DNA of 38,493 nucleotides from Candidatus Hydrogenedentota bacterium (GTDB taxonomy: Bacteria; Hydrogenedentota; Hydrogenedentia; Hydrogenedentales; SLHB01), in the NCBI GenBank assembly GCA_016215105.1, contig JACRLJ010000037.1:77554-116046 (forward strand), given 5' to 3'. The translations under genes were made by a program, and so were the position numbers. The notes beneath the pieces are model-generated. The model saw only the letters and a program-made list of their open reading frames with translations, ran no database searches and had not been told where the DNA came from. How positions within the stretch are numbered: the stretch's first letter is position 1; every line of letters starts with the position of its first letter. Below, piece by piece: positions 10,990 through 26,019 of the stretch.

Positions 10990-11098
10990 CGTCCCTCCTT
11001 CATCGTCCCTTCCGTCCCTTCCGTCCCTTTGGTCCCTTTAGTCCCTTCTCCCATCCTTCCCATCGCTCCCATTCCTCCCATCCTTCCCATCCTTCCCA
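10990..11098. repeat. Polypyrimidine minisatellite
   Basis: Imperfect 9-10-bp units of the type GTCCCTTCC and CATCCTTCC. The plus strand is nearly pure pyrimidine over ~100 bases, so the minus strand is purine-rich with regularly spaced GGG runs. Related to the array at 12100-12298 on the other side of the same gene. Confidence 0.8.
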
Positions 11099-11217
11099 AA
11101 AATGACACCCAAAAAACTTCAAATCTCCATTTTTCCCAACAAAAACCCACTTCCACGCCCCAAAATCACCCCAAAACAGCGAAACAACTGCCCCTTACAT
11201 ATAAGGAGGTATTTAGC

Positions 11218-12402
11218 ATGAACACACTTGCTGAACTCGAACTCGAACCCGAAACCATCGACCAAACAACCGTTCTACCACAACAGCCGCTCGACCCCGA
11301 ATCCGAATCCGCCTCGCGCAAACTCGTCAACGGCGCCCTTTCCAAACCGGCGCCCCCGCCCACACCCCAGCATCGCACGGCCGCGGGCACACCCTACTCC
11401 AGTTCCTGGACCAAGTCCTGGATCGCCCGCGTCACCCAAACCGAGACCCGGCTTCAGCGGCGCATCTGCGGAGCCCAACTTCCCGACGGGTCCCCCTGCG
11501 AACTCGAATCGCGCCACAAGAACGGTCGTTGCCGCATGCACGGCGGCTTCGACCTCACCGGCGCCCCCGCAGGAAACACCAACGCCGAGATACACGGCCT
11601 CTACACCCGCCGCCTCAAGACGTGCAGCATGCACTGCCCTATGTGGAACGAATGCCCCTGCGCAGGCGCCGATGTCGCCGCGATGGAACCCCGTAAGCGC
11701 CCGACCTGTCCCTACGAACAAGCCGAATACGATTCCGCCGTTGCAACCGCCCTCAGCAACGCCAAGAAATCCGATTCCGCCACGCCAGTCCAAGACGCCC
11801 ACACTCTTGCCTTGCTCCAAGTCATGACGACCCGCGCCTCCCTCGCCGTGCGCAATGAACCTCTCGCCCATGAGGTCGGATTCGTTTCCAACGGCCAATT
11901 CAGCCAAACAGGCACCAAACTCAACGCCCACTTCCAAGCCTTCACCCGCATCGTCGCCGAATACCGCCGATTCACCGCCGTGCTCAAACCAAAAAAGAAA
12001 AAACACGCCACCCTAACCGCCAACGACCTGGCCCTGCTCCACCTAAGCGCCACCCAAAACCCCGAAGCCCCCGAACCGCCGCCGACCACTGATGCTCCAT
12101 CCGTCGCTTCGGTCCCTCGCGTCCCTTTGGTCCCTTGTGCCCCATCAGTCCCATCAGTCCCATCGGTCCATCAGCTCCATCAGTTCCATCAGTCCCATCA
12201 GTCCCATCAGTCCCATCGGTCCCATCGGTCCCATCAGCAACTTTGGTCCCTCTGGTCCCTTGCGTCCCTTTGGTCCCTTGCGACCCACCGGCCCCACCAC
12301 CAACTCGTTCCCAAGTTGGTGAAACCTCTTAGCCGCAATAGAACGCCGAGAACGCAAGGAGATTACGAAGATGTTGTCACAGGCCGGGTTGGCCATGGGT
12401 AG
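11218..12402 (+). CDS. HGG-motif cysteine-rich protein (phage small-terminase-like) with repeat-derived C-terminus
   Basis: 394 residues as read. The core (about 80-290) contains CGAQLPDGSPC, then CRMHGG, GAPAGNTNAEIHGLY and a second cysteine set (CSMHCPMWNECPC, then CPYE). The order 'C..C, MHGG, GAPxGNxNAxxHGLY' is typical of phage small-terminase-like or DNA-packaging-associated proteins and probably binds zinc; function here is uncertain. The start is ATG 11218, backed by TAAGGAGG nine bases upstream. Homology seems to stop near residue 295. After that the frame runs through a 9-bp minisatellite and is low-complexity (SVPSVPSV, HQSHQSHQSHRSHR, LWSLWSLASLWSL), so the natural stop may have been lost to repeat expansion. 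No other phage genes are nearby, so this is an orphan relic or a domesticated gene. Confidence 0.68.
   Translation: MNTLAELELEPETIDQTTVLPQQPLDPESESASRKLVNGALSKPAPPPTPQHRTAAGTPYSSSWTKSWIARVTQTETRLQRRICGAQLPDGSPCELESRHKNGRCRMHGGFDLTGAPAGNTNAEIHGLYTRRLKTCSMHCPMWNECPCAGADVAAMEPRKRPTCPYEQAEYDSAVATALSNAKKSDSATPVQDAHTLALLQVMTTRASLAVRNEPLAHEVGFVSNGQFSQTGTKLNAHFQAFTRIVAEYRRFTAVLKPKKKKHATLTANDLALLHLSATQNPEAPEPPPTTDAPSVASVPRVPLVPCAPSVPSVPSVHQLHQFHQSHQSHQSHRSHRSHQQLWSLWSLASLWSLATHRPHHQLVPKLVKPLSRNRTPRTQGDYEDVVTGRVGHG
12100..12298. repeat. 9-bp minisatellite inside the 3' end of the HGG gene
   Basis: Units of GTCCCATCA and GTCCCTTTG variants in near-perfect 9-base phase, so the repeat translates without frameshift. 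CCC triplets recur every nine bases at 12194, 12203, 12212, 12221 and 12230, giving five minus-strand GGG tracts with six-base loops, a pattern that can form a G-quadruplex. Confidence 0.85.
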
Positions 12403-12666: not shown

Positions 12667-12788
12667 AATGAAGTTGACGGTTAGTAGTACGGAACACACT
12701 GAAAATATCGAGGCGAAAAGGGGCAACAATGAAGTTGACGGTTAGTAGTACGGAACACACTGAAAATATCGAGGCGAAAAGGGGCAAC
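12667..12788. repeat. 61-bp tandem duplication
   Basis: 12667-12727 and 12728-12788 are the same 61-base unit, beginning AATGAAGTTGACGG and ending GGGGCAAC. The copies look identical by eye, implying a recent duplication or an assembly artefact. Confidence 0.88.
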
Positions 12789-12814: not shown

Positions 12815-13206
12815 GCATAGCGCGGCGTGGCCGCAACCCAGATAGGGTTGGAAACAGTTCCTCAACGCAGAGACGCAGAGAGCGCAGAGGAACGCGGAGA
12901 ACATTTCTCAATCTGGAAATCAGGAAAGCTGGTCAGACGAAGATCCAATGGATTGGCGAGAGAGTAGCATGGCGCGGCAGAGCCGAAGCCAGACCTCTTA
13001 GCCGCAAGAGAACGCGGAGAACGCAGGGGGTGCGCGTCCAGGGATAGGACGCCATCGGCATGACCCACTACACCAGCACTGCAACGCTATGCGCTAAAGT
13101 AGGCGCGCCGTCTCGTCGCGCCAGCCGGAGCGTGAATGCTGCATGTACGTGTAGCGTCTGCCTTGGGGTAATCGAGATGCCCTAAAGTTGTCCTTGACAT
13201 GAATCG
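12815..13206. repeat. ~392-bp direct repeat, copy 1
   Basis: Runs from GCATAGCGCGGCGTGG to TTGACATGAATCG. It matches 13345-13737 with scattered substitutions. Inside are a CAACCC/GGGTTG stem, the 'CAACGCAGAGACGCAGAG' motif seen as filler in many genomes, a GCGTCC/GGACGC stem, and a GTAG-footed REP hairpin at 13102-13122 (loop TCT). Confidence 0.88.
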
Positions 13207-13344: not shown

Positions 13345-13737
13345 GCATAGCGCGGCGTGGCCGCAACCCAGATAGGGTTGAAGAGCAATTCTTCAACGCA
13401 GAGACGCAGAGAGCGCAGAGGAACGCGGAGAACATTTCTCAATCTGGAAATCAGGAAAGCTGGTCAGACGGAGTTCCAATGGATTGGCGAGAGAGTAGCA
13501 TGGCGCGGCAGAGCCGCAGCCAGACCTCTTAGCCGCAAGAGAACGCAGAGAACGCAAGGGGTGCGCGTCCAAGGATAGGACGCCATCGGCATGGCTCGCT
13601 ACACCAGCACTGCAACGCTATGCGCTAAAGTAGGCGCGCCGTCTCGTCGCGCCAGCTGGAGCGCGAATGCCGGATATATGTGCAGCGTCTGCCCTGGGGC
13701 AGTCGAGACGCTCTAAAGTTGTTCTTGACGCGAATCG
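13345..13737. repeat. ~392-bp direct repeat, copy 2
   Basis: Second copy of 12815-13206, again holding a GTAG-footed hairpin (13633-13653). Its right end differs functionally: TTGACG at the repeat edge is followed 17 bases later by TATATT in unique DNA, forming a good promoter. In copy 1 the corresponding TTGACA has no -10 element. Confidence 0.88.
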
Positions 13738-13753
13738 AGAATTCCGCTATATT
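13725..13753 (+). promoter_or_regulatory. Near-consensus sigma70 promoter of the transporter/AAA+/radical SAM operon
   Basis: TTGACG (13725-13730), exactly 17 bases, then TATATT (13748-13753). It is the strongest promoter match seen in the window. Transcription from about 13760 would give a ~285-base leader before the first gene. Confidence 0.65.
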
Positions 13754-13908
13754 CTCACTGTTGCCTCGCGGTTAGGGGGTATTCCGAGCGCCAAAGTGCG
13801 GTGGGTTTCACGTCAAGGTTCTGCCACGGCGAACGAGTCCTTGAGCATCCATCCTGAGCAAGGCTTGGGATTCGGTATTTCAAACTCACTCTCGGGGGTA
13901 ATTAAAAA

Positions 13909-13947
13909 ATGAATACAGAAGTGAGACGAGGGATGGGTGACGGATAA
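13909..13947 (+). CDS. Possible 12-codon leader peptide
   Basis: ATG at 13909 follows CGGGGGTA (13893-13900) at suitable spacing and encodes MNTEVRRGMGDG, with TAA at 13945-13947. It overlaps both competing left arms of the leader hairpins (13921-13928 and 13936-13945), so ribosome position could choose between folds. Short ORFs arise easily by chance, so this is tentative. Confidence 0.3.
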   Translation: MNTEVRRGMGDG

Positions 13948-13983
13948 ACATGCACACGTGGTTCTTGCTTGATCCGTCTCACC
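13921..13983 (+). promoter_or_regulatory. Leader with mutually exclusive hairpins
   Basis: The right arm ATCCGTCTCACC (13972-13983) can pair with GTGAGACG (13921-13928, perfect 8 bp) or with GGTGACGGAT (13936-13945, 10 bp with a two-base bulge). Both cannot form together. It sits ~60 bases before the first operon gene. No known riboswitch consensus was recognised. Confidence 0.4.
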
Positions 13984-14044
13984 TTACTCTTCATACTTCA
14001 ACCCATCTAAATGGTGGCTATATCGCTTTTCAGGAGGAGCAAAG

Positions 14045-15028
14045 ATGAAACAAACGACCATGAAACTTCGAATAGTCACTCTCGTCCTGGTGTTCGCCAC
14101 CGTGCTCGTTTCGTGCTCGAAGAAGGAACTCCAGCAAACGCAGAAACCACTGGAGTCGATTCGCATTGGCTATGTCCCGTATTCGTCCAGTATGCCGGCT
14201 CTGGTCGCGGTCGAGAAGGGCTTCGCAAAAGCCCAGGGTCTCGACGTTCAACTAGTGCGACTTGAAACATCGAACGAAGCAATCATCGCCCTGACCAAAG
14301 GCGACATCCAAGGACTGATGGGAATCGGCCTTCCCAGTCTGCTTGCCATAGAGGTAAAGACGCCGGGTACGTTCAAGTTTATTTGGTACGCAGTAGAGAC
14401 CGGGCCCCACAGCGTGAACGCGCTGCTGGTACCGGTCAAGTCTGAGGCAACTGACATCGAATCGCTACGAGGCAAGACGGTTGGCACTTTCTCCGGCGCG
14501 ACCCAACTCCTCAACCTCCAGGCCATATTCAAGACCGCACTTGGTGACACAGATGCCGTCAAGATATCTCAAGTAGCTCCAAACCTACAGCTTCAGGCCC
14601 TTGAGAATGGCGAAATCGCGGCGCTTTTCACAATCGAACCCCAGGTTACCATCGCAACGGAAAAAGGGATAGGGCGGATTCTTGTCGACAACCCCCGGAG
14701 CAAGTACATCATGGATCCGTTTCCGGGCGGAGGCGGCGTATTGGCCACCGCCTTCATTACGGCGAAGCCGGAACTAGCCAAGAAACTGCGCACCGCGTTT
14801 GACTCCGCCATCGAGAGCATCAGAGCCGACGAGTCTGCGGCAAAATCGCTCTTGCCCAAGTACGCACCCGTGGAATCAGAGATCGCGGCCAAGACGCGCC
14901 TCTACGGGTGGTGGACTTCGTCTCAGGTCGATCTGAAGAGCCTCCAAAGCATGGCAGATCTTCTCGAACATGACGGCATAGTCAAGGGTCACGTGGATGT
15001 CAAGAATATCGTCATGCCGGGAGAGTGA
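14045..15028 (+). CDS. ABC transporter solute-binding lipoprotein (NMT1/SsuA-like, NitT/TauT family)
   Basis: 327 residues. The signal peptide ends in lipobox LVSC (Cys24), so the mature protein is a periplasmic lipoprotein. IRIGYVPYSSSMPALVAVEKGFAKAQGLDVQLV opens a type II periplasmic binding fold of the NMT1/THI5-like or SsuA group, which captures nitrate, sulfonates, taurine, bicarbonate or pyrimidine precursors. The ligand cannot be told from sequence. GDIQGLMGIGLPSLLAI and LRGKTVGTFSGATQ are the usual hinge and second-lobe segments. The start is ATG 14045, with AGGAGG seven bases before; an internal ATG at 14060 is less well placed. It is the first gene of a five-gene operon, and its stop overlaps the next start (TGATG). 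A promoter lies at 13725-13753. Confidence 0.9.
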   Translation: MKQTTMKLRIVTLVLVFATVLVSCSKKELQQTQKPLESIRIGYVPYSSSMPALVAVEKGFAKAQGLDVQLVRLETSNEAIIALTKGDIQGLMGIGLPSLLAIEVKTPGTFKFIWYAVETGPHSVNALLVPVKSEATDIESLRGKTVGTFSGATQLLNLQAIFKTALGDTDAVKISQVAPNLQLQALENGEIAALFTIEPQVTIATEKGIGRILVDNPRSKYIMDPFPGGGGVLATAFITAKPELAKKLRTAFDSAIESIRADESAAKSLLPKYAPVESEIAAKTRLYGWWTSSQVDLKSLQSMADLLEHDGIVKGHVDVKNIVMPGE

Positions 15029-15810
15029 TGGGCGGAGTTTCGTATATAGAGGTAGCCGACCTTTCGGTGGCCTATCCAGATCCGTCTGCGGCCAACCGGC
15101 ACCTGCTGGCAATAGATCGTCTATCACTCAGCATTCCCAAGGGCGCATTCATATCGATTGTTGGACCAAATGGCTGCGGGAAGACGACCCTGCTTCTGTG
15201 CCTGGCAGGCATCCTGAAGCCCACGTCGGGTAACGTGCGGATCGCTGGCGTTGCGCCGGGCAAGACGACATGCGGGTACGTCTTCCAGAACTATCGAGAG
15301 TCGCTCTACCCTTGGCTCACCGTGCTGGACAACATTGCTCTTCCGCTTTGGCTGGACGGTTTTGCCCGTGCAAAGGCACGCCAGGCTGCCACCGAACTCA
15401 TGGCAACGCTCAACATCGAACTTCCGGTTGACCGCTTCCCATACACACTCAGCGGCGGCCAACAGCAACTCGCCGCACTCCTGCGGGCCGTCATACACAA
15501 ACCAGCCGTATTGCTTCTCGACGAGCCGCTCGGATCCCTCGACGTTCCGTCCCGTGCGGACTTGTGCGACGCAGTGCAGCGCATCTGGCAGGCAATAGGC
15601 GCGACGACTGTTCTGGTTACCCACGATCTCGACGAAGCCATCCAGGTCGCCGATACAGTGGTGGCGTTCACTCCACGCCCCGCTCGTGTCGCGGACACCG
15701 TTGAGGTGCCTCTCCCGCGACCGCGGTCGCGGGACATTTTGCATGATCCCCAAGTTGTCGTGTGGCGAGACCGGGTTCACAGGGCCATGACGGGAGGGCG
15801 AGACTCTTGA
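15028..15810 (+). CDS. ABC transporter ATP-binding protein (NitT/TauT family)
   Basis: 260 residues with all nucleotide-binding motifs: Walker A GPNGCGKT (46-53), Q-loop Gln87, signature LSGGQQQ (141-147), Walker B VLLLDEP (161-167), D-loop GSLD and H-loop His199 in VLVTHD. Length and motif spelling fit SsuB/TauB/NrtD-type importer ATPases. The start ATG overlaps the stop of the binding-protein gene by one base, and GGGAGAG lies directly upstream; a GTG three bases earlier is a less likely start. The stop overlaps the permease start by four bases. It powers import through the adjacent permease as a homodimer. Confidence 0.94.
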   Translation: MGGVSYIEVADLSVAYPDPSAANRHLLAIDRLSLSIPKGAFISIVGPNGCGKTTLLLCLAGILKPTSGNVRIAGVAPGKTTCGYVFQNYRESLYPWLTVLDNIALPLWLDGFARAKARQAATELMATLNIELPVDRFPYTLSGGQQQLAALLRAVIHKPAVLLLDEPLGSLDVPSRADLCDAVQRIWQAIGATTVLVTHDLDEAIQVADTVVAFTPRPARVADTVEVPLPRPRSRDILHDPQVVVWRDRVHRAMTGGRDS

Positions 15811-16550
15811 CACGTGATCGTGCCCTTCTTGCTCTAATACTCCTCGCCTTTTGGAGTGCCCTGGCTTATTCCGGTAGCGTCTCACCGCTTTTTCTGCCAG
15901 AGCCCCACGCGGTGGTTGTGTCGTTTTGGCGTGGACTCGTAAGCGGCTCAATTCTCCGCGACATCGCCGCCACCATGGCCCGTGTCCTTACCGGTTTCCT
16001 CCTGGGCGGGGCAGTCGGCGTCACCGGGGGCATATTCCTAGGCTACTGGAAACGTCTCCACAACGCGAGCATTCCTTTCCTCGACTTTCTGCGCAGCGTC
16101 CCGGTCACGGCCATCCTGCCTCTTTTTCTTCTAGCCTTCGGTATTGGCGATACCGCCAAGATCGCCGCCATCGCTTGGGCGTCGGCACTCATGATGCTCA
16201 TTAACACAGTCCTTGGCGTTGCGTCCGTGCCACCCACGCGCCTGATGGTGGCCGCAACGCTTCGAGCGAGTTCGTATCAACGTCTTGTCCACGTCATCCT
16301 GCCGGACGCACTGCCGCAGATATTCATCGGCATCCGCACCGCAATCTCGTTTGCCGTCGTTGTGGCCGTCGTAAGTGAAATGCTGCTCAGCACCACCTCC
16401 GGCATCGGCGCCTCCATATACAATTCGAGCGTTATGTACCGCACCGAGGACGTTTACGTCGGCATCATTCTTACGGGTGCCATTGGATACTTGCTGAACC
16501 TAGCCACTGCGCGTTTGGACGCACGAATAGTCCACTGGCGAGCACGATAA
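15807..16550 (+). CDS. ABC transporter permease (NitT/TauT family)
   Basis: 247 residues with about six membrane helices and a BPD_transp_1 core; the cytoplasmic EAA-type coupling loop lies around AATLRASSYQRLVHVILPDALPQIFIGIRTA. It resembles SsuC/TauC/NrtB permeases. The start chosen is TTG 15807, which overlaps the ATPase stop as TTGA and has GGGAGG upstream; the frame extends to a GTG at 15762, but that would overlap the ATPase gene by 49 bases. Eleven bases separate its stop from the AAA+ gene, which has its own strong ribosome-binding site. Together with the two preceding genes it makes a complete importer. Confidence 0.91.
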   Translation: MTRDRALLALILLAFWSALAYSGSVSPLFLPEPHAVVVSFWRGLVSGSILRDIAATMARVLTGFLLGGAVGVTGGIFLGYWKRLHNASIPFLDFLRSVPVTAILPLFLLAFGIGDTAKIAAIAWASALMMLINTVLGVASVPPTRLMVAATLRASSYQRLVHVILPDALPQIFIGIRTAISFAVVVAVVSEMLLSTTSGIGASIYNSSVMYRTEDVYVGIILTGAIGYLLNLATARLDARIVHWRAR

Positions 16551-16560
16551 GGAGGAACCC

Positions 16561-18885
16561 TTGGGCGACGACAAGATAGATCAACTGCGCTCCGTAATTA
16601 GCAATCACATGACGGCTGAGAAACTTAGACCACTTCAGATTGCAATCCGCAACGGCAATAACATCGCTTATAGGGCGGGACTTACGTCGCTGATCCGAGA
16701 CATCCTCGACGATATGAGCAAACAGATTGCGGTAATGGCATCTCTCGACGAAGTATCTGTTCTGACTTCCTACCATGCCAGCAGCATCATTCTTAGCGGA
16801 TGGCTCCGGGTCACTCAAAGCCGACAAGTATGGGAGAGAACCACCTTTGCCCAAACAGAAATAGACACTTTTAGAAGAATCTACGATTGGGATGCTAGAC
16901 CTGGGCATCTGATGACAGACCCAGGCGGGCAGGAGTCGATTGACGTCATATTCTGTCGGGACGGAATCCTGGACAACAAGTGTTGCGTCACGCCCGCAAC
17001 GTGGCGCATATCGAGAAGACTTCTCCATTCGGTTCTCTTTCCGGTCCTCGTTGAGCACGCACTGGACGGAGTCAAGCCGGACAACTTTGCCATGGCGGCC
17101 CAGTGCGTAAGGGCGTCAAGGGGGATAGTAATCTCCGAGGCCGATTTCCAGGAATTGAATGACCTTTCGCAAGCGCTGAACGACTTCGACTTCTGGAAAC
17201 AAAGCCCGAGCGATACAATGCCGTTCTTTAGAGTTCGTAGTTTTCTTGTCACCTTCTTCTACACTATAGGTCGCTGCGCGATGCCTGACATGAGTGCGAA
17301 CTCTCCGCTTATTGTCAGAGACGGAGCCAAGTTCGAACGCATTGTTGCATATGGTGTGCATCCAGAGAATATCGGTTTGGTTCCCAACGACAGCGAAAAG
17401 ATCGGCTCACTTGCTCTCGTCACAAGCCACAAGAAGAAGAGCACTCTATCCTACGACGTTGCCGACGCACTGCGTGCTGCCAGTGAATTCCTCGCCAAGT
17501 CACTCAGATGCTTTGAACTTGACGCTGCGGCCAATACGTCTCATGTCCGAACTACAACGCCGGACGAAGAAGACTCCATCCGCCAAGCCTGCGAGGTTGA
17601 CTATCTCGCAGACACAGAAGAAGTGAGGCAACAACCAGGCCTGGAGCAACTTCTTAGGCTCAGCCGTTCGTTACACGAAGCAATCGCGCATCGTCTGATA
17701 AAAGCTCACTATACAGATGAGGCTGAAGCAGCCGTACACAAGAATAAGTGCAGTAATACACCAACGGGCGTTCCTGTGTGTCTGCCCGTAGAACTCATGA
17801 CAGATATGACCATTCAGAAACTCTTGCTGGAGTGCGATATCGTGGGTTCGAGTCGGCAATACGTTCAGATGGTGCATGATCTTGCGGCCGTAGCGGCGAC
17901 GGACGATCTCTCGGAGACGCGTGTCGTTTTCCTCGACAGTGAACCTGGCTGCGGAAAGGAAATGCTCGCGAAGTTGCTCCATCTGTTTTCACGTCGCGCC
18001 CACCTTGATGCGCACGCAAAACTAGTCGTGCCCCGTCTGAAGCCAATGCTTGAAGATCTCAAGGGCTGCCTGGAACCGCTTATCTGTCAAGACCATAAGG
18101 AGCATTCAGTTTTCAAGGCCGTAACCGCGGTTCTGACGAACCCGCCTGGGTCGGACTATTGCATGGCGCGTCTCTCGAACTATTTTACGCTCAATATGGC
18201 TGCGTTGACGGACGAAGAACGCTTTATGGCGGAATTATTCGGTTCTTACAGTGAGGAGGATAAAATCAAAAAAGCCGGTCGTTGCTTCATGGCGCACGCG
18301 CTAAGCGGAACCGTCTTCTTAGACGAACTCAACACGCTACCAACAAAGGATCAGGCGAACTCGTTTCTTCGACTTCTGGAGAAGCCGTTTGAGATGGAGA
18401 TCCCTGGCCGCAGCTCCGGCCCCATTCGGGACGCGAACATGTTCATCGTTTTTGCCAGCAACAAGACCCGAGAGGAACTCATAGAGGCTGGTTTTAACGA
18501 AGCAGTCGTGTACCGGATAACCAAAACGAGAATCCACATACCTCCGCTTCGCGAACGGCCTGCTGATATAGCCGTCTTCGTCAACGCGAGAGTTCGCAAA
18601 CACAACGAAAGAAGGTGCAAGGCTGGGAAGGTGAAGGAACAGATACGAAAGATCGACATCCAGGCCATGCGCCTACTCTGCGAACTCCGCTGGCCGGACA
18701 ACTACCGCGGCGTTCAGGGGCTCATGGACGACATTTCTGGGGATCGGATTCAGCGTGGGATAGAACACCCAGAACTGACATTCGATGAGATACTCAGAGG
18801 GTTGAGGCGTCGTGAAGCGTTTCAGGCAGACGTAACCCGAGGTAAGACAGAATCAAAAGAGCATTCGGCAAGACAGTGCAAATGA
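16561..18885 (+). CDS. NtrC-like AAA+ ATPase lacking GAFTGA, with large unknown N-terminal region
   Basis: 774 residues. It starts at TTG 16561, preceded by AAGGAGG at good spacing. Residues 427-720 form a sigma54-activator-type AAA+ domain: IVGSS (427-431), Walker A SEPGCGKE (460-467), ELFG (558-561), Walker B GTVFLDEL (583-590), PPLRERPADI (661-670) and the sensor II-like RWPDNYRGVQ (710-719). The GAFTGA loop that contacts sigma54 should follow ELFG, but the sequence there is SYSEEDKIKKAG, so a standard sigma54 activator role is unlikely. An extra ~55 residues (about 483-538) sit between Walker A and the next conserved strand. Residues 1-425 match no family I recognise and could hold a ligand-sensing domain. 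No C-terminal DNA-binding helix-turn-helix is evident. The gene looks more A/T-rich than its neighbours. Its stop overlaps the next start by four bases. Confidence 0.83.
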   Translation: MGDDKIDQLRSVISNHMTAEKLRPLQIAIRNGNNIAYRAGLTSLIRDILDDMSKQIAVMASLDEVSVLTSYHASSIILSGWLRVTQSRQVWERTTFAQTEIDTFRRIYDWDARPGHLMTDPGGQESIDVIFCRDGILDNKCCVTPATWRISRRLLHSVLFPVLVEHALDGVKPDNFAMAAQCVRASRGIVISEADFQELNDLSQALNDFDFWKQSPSDTMPFFRVRSFLVTFFYTIGRCAMPDMSANSPLIVRDGAKFERIVAYGVHPENIGLVPNDSEKIGSLALVTSHKKKSTLSYDVADALRAASEFLAKSLRCFELDAAANTSHVRTTTPDEEDSIRQACEVDYLADTEEVRQQPGLEQLLRLSRSLHEAIAHRLIKAHYTDEAEAAVHKNKCSNTPTGVPVCLPVELMTDMTIQKLLLECDIVGSSRQYVQMVHDLAAVAATDDLSETRVVFLDSEPGCGKEMLAKLLHLFSRRAHLDAHAKLVVPRLKPMLEDLKGCLEPLICQDHKEHSVFKAVTAVLTNPPGSDYCMARLSNYFTLNMAALTDEERFMAELFGSYSEEDKIKKAGRCFMAHALSGTVFLDELNTLPTKDQANSFLRLLEKPFEMEIPGRSSGPIRDANMFIVFASNKTREELIEAGFNEAVVYRITKTRIHIPPLRERPADIAVFVNARVRKHNERRCKAGKVKEQIRKIDIQAMRLLCELRWPDNYRGVQGLMDDISGDRIQRGIEHPELTFDEILRGLRRREAFQADVTRGKTESKEHSARQCK

Positions 18886-20309
18886 TGAGATCAATTTGCA
18901 CGGCTTCTAGCCATATTAGACCTCAACTTGTTCTGGCACCACCCGATCAGAACTCCGGCCGAATCTCACGTAGCGGTTGTTTTCCGCCTCTCGGGCTCCT
19001 CGGGATCGCCACGTGGCTTCGTGAGCGCACCGGAATAGCGGCGGAAATCCTGGACGGCGAGATTCTCGACTTGCAGACCCTGGCGGCCCGACTTCGTGAC
19101 GGCTTGGTGGGCATCAGCGTCAGTCAGTTGACGTACGCGAACTCCGTCGCGCTCGCTCAAATCGCCAAGGGCCGGGGCGCAACCGTTGTCTTTGGCGGCC
19201 ACCACGCAACGGCTCATGCCGAACGCATTTTGAGGACGCAGCCATCCGTTGACGCTGTCGTCGTGGGCGACGGCGAGGAGGCTTTCGCCGGTCTGGCGAC
19301 AGGCGCGCCGTACGAGAAGGCGCCGAATCTCGTGTACCGTGATGCCGAAGGGATTATCCGCTATACGGAGCGCCGTGACGTAGACCTTCGGGCGGTACCA
19401 ATTCCCGACCGAACTTTAGTCCCGCTGGAACCGTACATAGCAAACTTCTGTCGCCAAAACCCAAACAAACCGTTCCGTCGCCCCTTTGCGGTTTGGACCC
19501 AGAAGGGCTGTGCCTGGCGTGCCCGAAGTGGCGGTTGTTCGTTCTGCGCTCGTACTGACCACGGCTGGCGGGCGCGCGACGTTGCCACCGTATGGCGCGA
19601 GATTGGCATGCTCTGCCGAACATACGGCGCGGACTACATCTGGGAACTGTCTGACGACATCTTGTCAGATACTGCTTGGTTCAACGCGTTCGCCGAATCC
19701 AAACCACCAGAAGTTAATCCGGCCTTCATGTTCTATGCGCGTCCCGCACATGTTACGTCTCAGGCAGCCGCGAGCATGGCCCGGCTTGGCGCGTATGAGG
19801 TCTTCCTTGGTATCGAGGCGGGCGACGACACTATCCTCCGCATGGCAAATAGGGGAATCACAACTGCAACCAATCTGCTGGCGGTCAAACGTCTGTCGGA
19901 ACATGGACTCAAAGTGTTCCCAAGTTTCGTCTTGGGTCTGGAGGGCGAATCGAAGGTAACTCTGCGAAGGACGGAGGAGCATTTGCTGCGTATACTAGAC
20001 ATGGCGTCTGTGGACACCATTGCGGTGTGTCACTTTATGCCTCTCCCTGGAGCGCCGGCCTACGACAGACTCATGAGGGTTCCAAAGGTGCGCGCAAAGT
20101 ACGCACACATGGACCACGTTCCCCTCGCCGCACTCCAAGAGGAATGGCTCAGGCGGTTCTGCCACGTCACCGTCGAAGAACTCACCGCCACGCGTGAGCG
20201 GATGATTTCGTACGCGCCCGTTGCCAGCGGCATGGGCGTCCCAGCCCATGCGACTAACATCGGTCCCAGCATGACGCTTCGCACGAAGGTCCAACCACAA
20301 TACACTTAG
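18882..20309 (+). CDS. B12-binding-type radical SAM protein with C-x8-C-x2-C motif
   Basis: 475 residues from ATG 18882, which overlaps the AAA+ stop as ATGA. Residues 1-165 resemble a cobalamin-binding Rossmann domain (PPLGLLGIATWLRE, then VVFGGHHATAHAERIL and VDAVVVGDGEEAF), as in BchE/HpnP-type radical SAM enzymes. The radical SAM barrel follows; its cluster cysteines are C210, C219 and C222 in TQKGCAWRARSGGCSFC, spaced C-x8-C-x2-C rather than the usual C-x3-C-x2-C. The later GIEAGDDTILRMANRGIT and SFVLGLEGES segments are classic for this superfamily. It should cleave SAM to a 5'-deoxyadenosyl radical; methyl transfer or rearrangement of an unknown substrate is inferred. It is the last gene of the operon and is followed by a terminator-like hairpin. 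Confidence 0.88.
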   Translation: MMRSICTASSHIRPQLVLAPPDQNSGRISRSGCFPPLGLLGIATWLRERTGIAAEILDGEILDLQTLAARLRDGLVGISVSQLTYANSVALAQIAKGRGATVVFGGHHATAHAERILRTQPSVDAVVVGDGEEAFAGLATGAPYEKAPNLVYRDAEGIIRYTERRDVDLRAVPIPDRTLVPLEPYIANFCRQNPNKPFRRPFAVWTQKGCAWRARSGGCSFCARTDHGWRARDVATVWREIGMLCRTYGADYIWELSDDILSDTAWFNAFAESKPPEVNPAFMFYARPAHVTSQAAASMARLGAYEVFLGIEAGDDTILRMANRGITTATNLLAVKRLSEHGLKVFPSFVLGLEGESKVTLRRTEEHLLRILDMASVDTIAVCHFMPLPGAPAYDRLMRVPKVRAKYAHMDHVPLAALQEEWLRRFCHVTVEELTATRERMISYAPVASGMGVPAHATNIGPSMTLRTKVQPQYT

Positions 20310-20621
20310 ATCGAGTAAGGAATAGCGATATCCCTTGCTCGACATAGATGGAAGCCACTTCGGCTGCGGATGATCGCGGAATAACATGGGGTTGCACGAA
20401 GCAGGAAGTGCAGACGAGAAACTGGGAGTTGGCGGTTTTGCCTTGATCCCAGACAGTTCATCCCCAAAAAACAATGCAGTCGGTATCGTCCTGAATCAGC
20501 GCCGTTACGGCGGGGCATGACTACCAGACGTTCTTGGATTTCGGTAGGTGTCCGAATACGGAGACGAAGCGGCAGCATTTTGTTGTCGTCCTACGGCGGA
20601 GCTTGAGGTCCTGTTTGGTCC
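20310..20621. other. 312-bp gap after the operon; nothing recognised beyond a hairpin
   Basis: After the hairpin at 20311-20342 the remaining ~280 bases carry only short open frames with no domain, start signal or repeat that I recognise. It may be decayed coding DNA, but I cannot name a parent gene. Confidence 0.4.
20311..20342 (+). terminator. Hairpin right after the radical SAM stop
   Basis: TCGAGTAAGG pairs with CCTTGCTCGA (one non-Watson-Crick position), with a 12-base loop. It begins two bases after TAG. No clear T-tract, so the terminator call is tentative. Confidence 0.45.
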
Positions 20622-23189: not shown

Positions 23190-23391
23190 CCGAAATTCTC
23201 CTATTTACCGCTTCATCGGTGACGCCAACTTAACATGTTTTGGCCGCGTAGTCCATCACGCCTGCGAGGGGTGGTAAATGGGCCAGATTTGCCGCCGCTT
23301 TGGCGGGCTTGCGGCGGACTTGGATCGCCGGTCGATGGGCGTGGTATCGTCATGAGTCAAAACGCAGCTTGTGCGGGAAATGGGGATTCGT

Positions 23392-26019
23392 ATGGCCGAT
23401 GGTATTTCACGACGCGGGTTCTTGGGAGGATCGTTGGGTATGGGGCTGCTCATGACGAGTACGGCGATGGGCGCAGGCACGGGCGGCGCCGAATCCGGAG
23501 GGCGGCTTCTGCATCGCATCGATTGCACGCAGGACTACCCGCCTGAACGGTATTTCACCAATTGCAGCGCCGGGGTCGTCGAAAGCGGCGCGGGCCGTTA
23601 CCGGGAAGGCGGCCCCAAGGCCGCTGACCGATTCGGGTACCGTTTTTCCGTCGAGCGCGTCGGGAAACCCCACGTGGCGGTCATCCGTTATCCGGACGAC
23701 AAACGCCGCTACATGTGCGTCATGGACAGCACCACCTACGATCTCTCGACCGGCCTTTTCACGAATTGGGCGCAGCCGCTCAGCGGCGCCATGCACGAAC
23801 TGCGGCAGATCTTCTGGCCGCGCTGGCGCGATTGTAGCGTCGTGTTCATGTCCTGGGGCGAGGGGGAACCGGCCGCCGCGGCGTCGGTCGAGATTTGGGA
23901 GCTGGATGAGTTGGCGCCCTTGGCGCTGCCTGCAAAGGCGCCCAGCCCGCGGCGCGAACTCGGAATTCAATACGAGGACCCGTGCGGGACGGGCGAGGCC
24001 GAAGGCGCCATGAACCGCGAGCAATGGCTGGATCACCTTACGGAATACGCGCTCCACTCCGGTCAAGGCTTGCTGGTGTATCCCATGGTCTGGTACCACG
24101 GCCCGGCGTTTCCGTCGGAACGGGAACCCTCGGGCGCGTTGGACATGGCCGTGGCCCGGGATCGGAACCAATACCTCCGTTGGACGACTCACCCCGAGGA
24201 TTGGTATGCGCGGCTGCTCAAGCGGTTTGGCCAGAAAGGGCTGAAATACCGCGCTTCGCTCACGATGATGCGCTTGGGCAGTCTCATGCAGAAGATGAAT
24301 ACGGATATCGCCGCGATCAAGGGTGGCGCCGATACCATCAACAACATGAATTGGAACGACCACGTTCAGGGAAGCACGGGAGACTGGACCCCGCTGTACA
24401 ACGTCCGGAATTTCAACGAGATTGCGAAGCTGGTCAAGCAGCAAGGGCGCGTCGAGCCCTTCGGCAGCAAGCTGCCCCCGTTCGCGTACGGCGAGACGCC
24501 CGATCCGGCCAATCCCATGAGCCCGATATTCAATCCGCTGCACCCGGTGGTGCAAGAGGCGCTGACGGAATTTGTCCGGGAGATTGGCGCGCGGTACGCC
24601 AAGTATCCCGCCTTTGAAGGGGTCTCGTTCAACATGTACGCCTCGTGCATGCCGTGGTTCGGGTCGATCCGTTCCGGGTACGATGATCTCACGATAGGGC
24701 TGTTCGAGAAGGAGACCGGAATACACCTTCCGGTGGATGCAAAGGCCCCGGACCGCTTCTCGAAACGGTACGACTATCTCACGCGGGTGTGCCGCGCGGC
24801 GTGGGTGGACTGGCGCTGCCGGAAGGTCCGCGACCTCTTTGTGAAAATGAGTCAGGCGCTGGCGGCCGCGCGGCCCGATCTAGACGTTGTAATCACCCTT
24901 TGGGACGAGACCACGATACCGGGTGTCCTGGGCATGCCGCTGGGCGCGCACCAACTGTATGCCCGCCAGAGCAATGTGGATTTCTTTCGCGACGCGGGTA
25001 TCGACATGGCGCTGTACCGTGACGTGCCCGGTATTCGCGTGGACACGCCTATGGGAAATTCGCGGGACCGGGGCGGGCACGGCGCGCATTCGGCGGGAGG
25101 CGTCAACACGCCAATCGAAGAGGCCACGATGTACCGCGACTTCGACTACCTGGACCAGGAGTCGCTGGACGCGGCGCACGCGCACGCGAAGCCGGGGGCG
25201 TTCATCTTTAATTGCTGGGTCGAGGCGTGGGGTAAACACGTTTGGTCCTGGCCGGAACCGGGCGACCCGAATGCGCGTGAACTCGGGATGATGGACGGGA
25301 AACCCGCGGAAGGGCTCCTGCGCATCAACTCGGAGTATCCGAAGGACGGTTTCTGGTGGGATTCGCAGTTGCGGATCACACCCGGATTTCCGGGTGGCCC
25401 GCACTTCCTCGAGCCGTACGCTCACGCGGTGGCGGAGTTGGACGCGTGCCGGATCACGCGCGGTGGACTGTTCCTCGATAAGGCGCACACCGAAGCCATT
25501 CAACAGTTCGCGCGCGCCTACCGCGCGTTGCCCGGCGAGAAGTTCGAGACGGTCGGCGCGACGACGGACCCTGTGGCGGTGCGGACGTTGCAGCGCGATG
25601 GGGTGCGCTATCTCTACCTCGTGAACCGCGACTACTATCCCGTGAACGTCGAGGTGACATTCAACGCCGCCCCCAAAGAGGTCCAGGATCTTTCCACGGG
25701 CAAGAAGCAGACCGCGTCGGATAGGTGGGCGCTGACGCTGGGGCCCTACGAGTTGCGCTCGTACTCGCTGGAATCGAACGCCGCAGTCGCGGGGTTCACC
25801 ACCGCATCCTCACCGGATATTGTGGCGCAACTGACGAAGGACGCAGAGAGCGCCTTCAAAACTTTCGCCGACGTGCGCGCGCGCAGCCTAATGGTCCCGG
25901 GGCTCGACACCTTCGAGGCGCGTATGCGCGCAGCCCTAACGGAACGCCGCTGGGCGTGGCTGAGACGCGCGCTGACCAGCTACATCGTGCGCAAGTCACG
26001 GGAGCTCTCCGCGAAGTAG
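23392..26019 (+). CDS. Tat-exported TIM-barrel glycoside-hydrolase-like protein
   Basis: About 875 residues from ATG 23392. The N-terminus, ADGISRRGFLGGSLGMGLLM, is a twin-arginine signal (RR at 7-8), so the protein is exported folded. The central part (about 200-620) reads like a glycosidase TIM barrel: GLLVYPMVWYHGPAFPSE, ARYAKYPAFEGVSFNMYASC, LDVVITLWDETTIPG and FIFNCWVEAWGKHVW carry the aromatic and acidic residues expected in strand ends. A beta-sandwich-like segment follows (about 690-790, ending LTLGPYELRSYSLES), then a helical tail. I cannot assign a GH family; the substrate is unknown. The frame extends seven codons upstream to a GTG at 23371, and ATG 23380 is also possible; ribosome-binding signals are weak for all. 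It diverges from the MaoC gene. Confidence 0.75.
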   Translation: MADGISRRGFLGGSLGMGLLMTSTAMGAGTGGAESGGRLLHRIDCTQDYPPERYFTNCSAGVVESGAGRYREGGPKAADRFGYRFSVERVGKPHVAVIRYPDDKRRYMCVMDSTTYDLSTGLFTNWAQPLSGAMHELRQIFWPRWRDCSVVFMSWGEGEPAAAASVEIWELDELAPLALPAKAPSPRRELGIQYEDPCGTGEAEGAMNREQWLDHLTEYALHSGQGLLVYPMVWYHGPAFPSEREPSGALDMAVARDRNQYLRWTTHPEDWYARLLKRFGQKGLKYRASLTMMRLGSLMQKMNTDIAAIKGGADTINNMNWNDHVQGSTGDWTPLYNVRNFNEIAKLVKQQGRVEPFGSKLPPFAYGETPDPANPMSPIFNPLHPVVQEALTEFVREIGARYAKYPAFEGVSFNMYASCMPWFGSIRSGYDDLTIGLFEKETGIHLPVDAKAPDRFSKRYDYLTRVCRAAWVDWRCRKVRDLFVKMSQALAAARPDLDVVITLWDETTIPGVLGMPLGAHQLYARQSNVDFFRDAGIDMALYRDVPGIRVDTPMGNSRDRGGHGAHSAGGVNTPIEEATMYRDFDYLDQESLDAAHAHAKPGAFIFNCWVEAWGKHVWSWPEPGDPNARELGMMDGKPAEGLLRINSEYPKDGFWWDSQLRITPGFPGGPHFLEPYAHAVAELDACRITRGGLFLDKAHTEAIQQFARAYRALPGEKFETVGATTDPVAVRTLQRDGVRYLYLVNRDYYPVNVEVTFNAAPKEVQDLSTGKKQTASDRWALTLGPYELRSYSLESNAAVAGFTTASSPDIVAQLTKDAESAFKTFADVRARSLMVPGLDTFEARMRAALTERRWAWLRRALTSYIVRKSRELSAK

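Follow-up and report, generated by a model that had tools for sequence, protein, structure and literature searches.

A five-gene operon of a NitT/TauT-type ABC importer, a GAFTGA-less AAA+ protein and a B12-binding radical SAM protein in a single contig of Candidatus Hydrogenedentota

The known enhancer-binding proteins (bEBPs) that lack the GAFTGA motif and act on sigma70 promoters retain a C-terminal helix-turn-helix (HTH) domain. Regulation of sigma70 promoters by GAFTGA-less bEBPs has been documented for NtrC of Caulobacter and Rhodobacter (PMC10274813). For the importer genes studied here, the best match to the substrate-binding protein among 291 genomes was found in G068, a member of another phylum (32% identity, E 3e-46). 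In this genome (cassette C4, locus L071) closely packed genes encode, in order, a substrate-binding protein, an ATPase, a permease, a 289-residue radical SAM protein and a 456-residue B12-binding radical SAM protein. No description of the five-gene set analyzed below was found in the literature, which is weak evidence because subscription papers were largely outside the coverage. We consider that the set may be an import-then-radical-chemistry cassette, acquired as one block, with a derived non-sigma54 ATPase that acts through protein contacts, and we give this reading a probability of roughly 0.4.

The stretch of DNA that was analyzed, referred to as the window, is 38,493 nucleotides long. 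Five plus-strand genes (14045-20309) encode a substrate-binding lipoprotein, an ABC ATPase, a permease, an AAA+ protein and a B12-binding radical SAM protein (Table 1). The preliminary description had seen here a coupled operon with overlaps of 1, 4 and 4 bases and one 11-base gap; the genes and the overlaps stand, and the gap, between permease and AAA+ genes, measures 10 bases. The binding protein and ATPase genes overlap by 1 base in TGATG (an alternative GTG start at 15025 would make this 4), the ATPase and permease genes by 4 bases in TTGA, and the AAA+ and radical SAM genes by 4 bases in ATGA. The AAA+ gene begins with TTG shortly 3' of an AGGAGG. A near-consensus promoter had also been placed in front of the operon. 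The site, TTGACG-17-TATATT, is present, but it lies about 290 bases upstream of the first start codon, and three sites of this type were observed in the scanned region against 3.4 expected by chance, so that the candidate does not exceed chance expectation. The radical SAM gene is indeed followed by the hairpin described (−18.3 kcal/mol, z −3.7, none of 200 shuffles equally good); it has no T-run and was not listed by the terminator scan.

Table 1. Features of the five-gene operon and its flanks (positions in the window)
Feature	Position	Strand	Basis
Candidate sigma70-like promoter, TTGACG-17-TATATT	13725..13753	+	promoter scan of region
Substrate-binding lipoprotein, NMT1/SsuA-like, 327 aa, lipobox LVSC	14045..15028	+	Pfam NMT1 1.5e-13, NMT1_2 3.6e-13
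ABC ATPase, 260 aa	15028..15810	+	Pfam ABC_tran 3.4e-29
ABC permease, 247 aa	15807..16550	+	Pfam BPD_transp_1 8.9e-17
AAA+ protein, sigma54-activator class, 774 aa, no GAFTGA, no C-terminal HTH	16561..18885	+	Pfam Sigma54_activat, alignment, fold match
AAA+ N-terminal region, about residues 1-423, without detectable relative	16561..17830	+	searches given in text
Insertion of about 55-60 residues, Walker A helix to strand leading to ELFG	18004..18180	+	alignment
ELFG, then shorter SYSEEDKIKKAG replacing GAFTGA loop	18232..18279	+	alignment, residue positions
B12-binding radical SAM protein, 475 aa, CX8CX2C at residues 210-222	18882..20309	+	Pfam
Hairpin behind operon, no T-run	20311..20342	+	folding vs shuffles

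The DNA upstream of the operon contains several repeats. Immediately upstream, 300 bases are directly duplicated with 94% identity (12855-13154 and 13386-13685); parts of this sequence recur at about 47 other sites of the genome, so the duplication is made up of dispersed repeats. At 12667-12788 a 61-base unit is repeated exactly in tandem. Nine-base repeats of the GTCCCWTCN type (10996-12299) flank and extend into an open reading frame at 11212-12402, which has a weak match to a terminase small subunit (phrog_9231, 1e-4). Rfam at gathering scores gave no upstream riboswitch or other RNA element, and the low-threshold matches were to plant miRNA models, which we read as chance or repeat-driven. 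On the other side of the operon, at 23371-26019, an 882-residue protein with a Tat-like N-terminus weakly matches GHL10 (glycoside hydrolase-like).

The gene identities given in the preliminary description (importer, AAA+ protein and B12-type radical SAM protein) agree with the Pfam and NCBIfam domain matches. An NMT1-like binding protein is encoded in one operon with one ATPase and one permease, and the three proteins form a predicted NitT/TauT-type ABC importer whose sequence names no substrate. The binding protein scored 88.6 bits against TIGR01728, the SsuA subfamily, under the cut-off of 163.5. Permease and ATPase matched SaoP, SaoA and nitrate and sulfonate transporters, in all cases under the curated cut-offs, and no NCBIfam equivalog for a named substrate subfamily (taurine, nitrate or sulfonate) was matched at its cut-off. 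Matches of the importer to homologues of solved structure were weak.

The fifth protein is, by its domains, a predicted B12-binding radical SAM protein, with B12-binding (PF02310, 3.5e-16, 59.6 bits) and Radical_SAM (PF04055, 1.1e-8, 35.8 bits) both over cut-off. Its cluster motif, CX8CX2C, departs from the canonical CX3CX2C; in its relatives within the phylum the motif is CX4CX2C or CX3CX2C. The best of these relatives are generic B12-binding radical SAM proteins with 30-35% identity, and a further 388 genomes gave no match at E 1e-32.

Within the set it is the AAA+ protein that is unusual: by its sequence it belongs to a known class as a variant, and its N-terminal half has no known relatives. 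It scored 50.5 bits against PF00158 (Sigma54_activat, cut-off 20.2), and an alignment with 11 enhancer-binding proteins, from which the state of its motifs was read, shows the class motifs ELFG, Walker B FLDEL, sensor-I ASNKT, PPLRERPADI and sensor-II WPDNYRG. The Walker A lysine, Walker B DE, sensor-I asparagine and sensor-II arginine are kept. One of the two arginine-finger positions is also kept, the second; at the first, in FNEAVVYRI, N takes the place of R. The alignment confirms the earlier claim that GAFTGA is missing, while all 11 aligned bEBPs have GAFTGA or a near variant. The C-terminus lies about 55 residues past the sensor-II motif, with no Fis-type HTH. In the full-length model, confident in the AAA+ core only, Foldseek matched the AAA+ domains of FleQ (1.9e-13), NtrC1, NtrX and PspF. 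The single-sequence model of the N-terminal region had a pLDDT of 36 and was unusable.

The first 425 residues of the AAA+ protein gave nothing in Pfam, even at E 10, but one sub-threshold chance match, no DNA-binding domain among the Pfam families at that level, and no match in the other 67 genomes of the phylum. A phage or plasmid origin of this region was considered and dropped, as 50,697 phage and 72,556 plasmid records held no match. With the full protein, 386 genomes sampled across the domain gave only ordinary bEBPs, which have GAFTGA or a near variant wherever the loop was readable, and no closer relative. No closer relative came from 84,980 species genomes either, where the scan required exact eight-residue matches and is insensitive. 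The only match of the contig search (L010) is an ordinary GAFTGA-bearing bEBP. A role in a defence system was set aside, since the PADLOC matches are confined to the shared AAA+ region.

What might such a protein do? The preliminary description suggested that it could be an enzyme remodelling chaperone rather than a transcription activator; the doubt about an activator stands to the extent that the absent C-terminal DNA-binding domain argues against an ordinary one. It might instead be a one-component or partner-dependent regulator of sigma70 promoters, through which the imported ligand would govern the operon. Its fold belongs to the class in which GAFTGA-less regulators of such promoters are documented, and a sensor function of the N-terminal region is conceivable, but the known examples keep the HTH that is missing here and no Pfam DNA-binding domain was found in the N-terminal region, even at E 10, so we regard regulation of this kind as rather unlikely.

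The set as a whole was proposed in the preliminary description as a candidate new system. Co-occurrence of the five genes was searched for in other genomes and, within the limits of the searches, the importer, AAA+ and radical SAM genes were found together in this contig only, the outcome that the proposal itself had named as counting against it. Since nothing found beyond the contig carries the set, the claim of a new system is not established. The importer of G068 is 32% (binding protein), 41% (ATPase) and 36% (permease) identical to that of the window. Its B12-binding radical SAM protein is 22% identical to the one in the window and is nearer to a generic B12-binding radical SAM protein from the phylum of the window (27%, 136 bits versus 65), so the two genes are not orthologues. 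The small radical SAM protein between importer and B12-binding enzyme in G068 (L071:5393-6262) has weak similarity to TYW1, viperin and tungsten-cofactor maturase. Beside four further importer relatives (G389, G827 and G723, of one phylum, and G194) no radical SAM or AAA+ gene was recognized, and the neighbourhood of a fifth (G787) is cut by a contig end. Several of the next importer relatives adjoin a predicted sensor kinase. At three loci of one phylum (L092, L099 and L100), importer relatives stand beside a predicted histidine sensor kinase some 580 residues long, and two of the three also adjoin a response regulator, a possible ligand-sensing pair. An importer with a B12-binding radical SAM gene thus occurs twice among the closest relatives, with non-orthologous enzymes, and the full set once. 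This may hint at a weak recurring theme and does not prove a system.

The five genes were probably acquired as one block from another organism, as judged from their composition and distribution. Their GC3 values are 0.66, 0.66, 0.65, 0.58 and 0.65 in gene order, whereas 14 other genes of this genome range from 0.74 to 0.83 (nine in the window, 0.75-0.83, and five bEBP genes elsewhere, 0.74-0.78). No orthologues of the binding protein, the AAA+ N-terminus or the radical SAM protein were found in the other 67 genomes of the phylum, the genus of the source being represented by one genome in these comparisons. The shared low GC3 and the missing orthologues would most simply be read as a joint acquisition of all five genes. 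It is also conceivable that an importer cassette was joined by unrelated foreign genes by chance, with the AAA+ gene under relaxed constraint. The single occurrence of the set, the motif losses and large insertion of the AAA+ protein, the lowest GC3 of the five in its gene and the roughly 1.4 kb of repeat-rich DNA upstream are what such an assembly might leave behind. The three overlapping junctions and the similar foreign composition across the five genes speak against it, as do the intact 774-codon AAA+ frame, its good ribosome-binding site and the preserved catalytic motifs, and we hold it to be unlikely.

The reading that we prefer, an import-then-radical-chemistry cassette, would work as follows. 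The lipoprotein-dependent importer, with a single, homodimeric permease, would take up a small molecule, and the co-expressed B12-binding radical SAM enzyme would methylate or rearrange this molecule, or a product of it, at an unactivated carbon; such a succession of uptake and radical chemistry seems the most economical account. The AAA+ protein would be a derived sigma54-activator-type ATPase that has lost both the contact to sigma54 (GAFTGA) and C-terminal DNA binding (HTH). That these two parts are lost and the ATPase motifs retained suggests that the protein works by contacting other proteins, most likely as an ATP-driven switch or remodeller governed by its own N-terminal region; its target could be the transporter, the radical SAM enzyme or some regulator whose gene lies outside the operon. 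Our reading rests on the overlapping starts and stops, the domain matches and the state of the AAA+ motifs, together with the shared low GC3, the lack of orthologues in the phylum and the independent operon of G068. Against it are the lack of a conserved association, the AAA+ protein in this genome only, the four importer relatives without recognized radical SAM or AAA+ genes, and the non-orthologous enzyme of G068.

A role of the AAA+ protein as a remodelling chaperone or activase dedicated to the radical SAM enzyme would fit the ATGA-coupled pair, as for matched synthesis, and the loss of the transcription-specific parts with the ATPase motifs kept, but the pair is in no other genome searched, G068 has importer and B12-binding enzyme without such an ATPase, and we know of no B12-binding radical SAM enzyme that requires a dedicated one, so this is quite improbable. 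We place equally little weight on the most specific form of the idea, a compound-specific import-and-modify module in which the AAA+ protein, stripped of its sigma54 and DNA contacts, would remodel or license the enzyme on the imported compound. If the AAA+ protein does work on the radical SAM enzyme, a sigma54-activator ATPase would have been turned into an enzyme helper, and B12-binding radical SAM enzymes, whose function is in many cases unknown, would acquire a class of partners. The more modest reading, that genes for such enzymes travel with NitT/TauT importers, would already give a handle on their substrates, as the binding protein can be screened for its ligand.

How does the locus compare with the known systems? 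The G068 cassette is alike in that binding protein, ATPase and permease genes are followed in the same operon by a gene for a B12-binding radical SAM protein, and different in having a second radical SAM gene where the window has the AAA+ gene and in its B12-binding enzyme, which is of another subfamily (CX3CX2C, BchE/ApyD-like in its scores). The Sao operon provides the best NCBIfam match of the permease (SaoP) and the second for the ATPase (SaoA), but SaoX, SaoA and SaoP scored 34, 166 and 132 bits against cut-offs of 300, 360 and 295, and SaoB, SaoC, SaoL and SaoT are unmatched among the five proteins; import of the Sao or organometallic kind was rejected on these scores, which are far under the cut-offs. 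The B12-dependent radical SAM C-methyltransferases of RiPP maturation (TIGR03975) are the closest NCBIfam family of the radical SAM protein (88 bits over residues 69-360), which falls below the cut-off of 281.85, has no recognized precursor peptide and has an importer as neighbour. RtcR has a CARF-AAA-HTH architecture, of which the CARF N-terminus and the HTH are missing here, and the PADLOC RtcR models match residues 543-721 of the AAA+ protein only. With sigma54-dependent bEBPs the AAA+ protein shares the PF00158-class domain but neither the GAFTGA loop nor the C-terminal Fis-type HTH. The GAFTGA-less bEBPs (Caulobacter and Rhodobacter NtrC, VpsR) are of the same AAA+ class and have likewise lost the sigma54 loop, but they keep receiver and HTH, whereas the AAA+ protein of the window has neither and carries instead a large insertion and an unrelated N-terminus.
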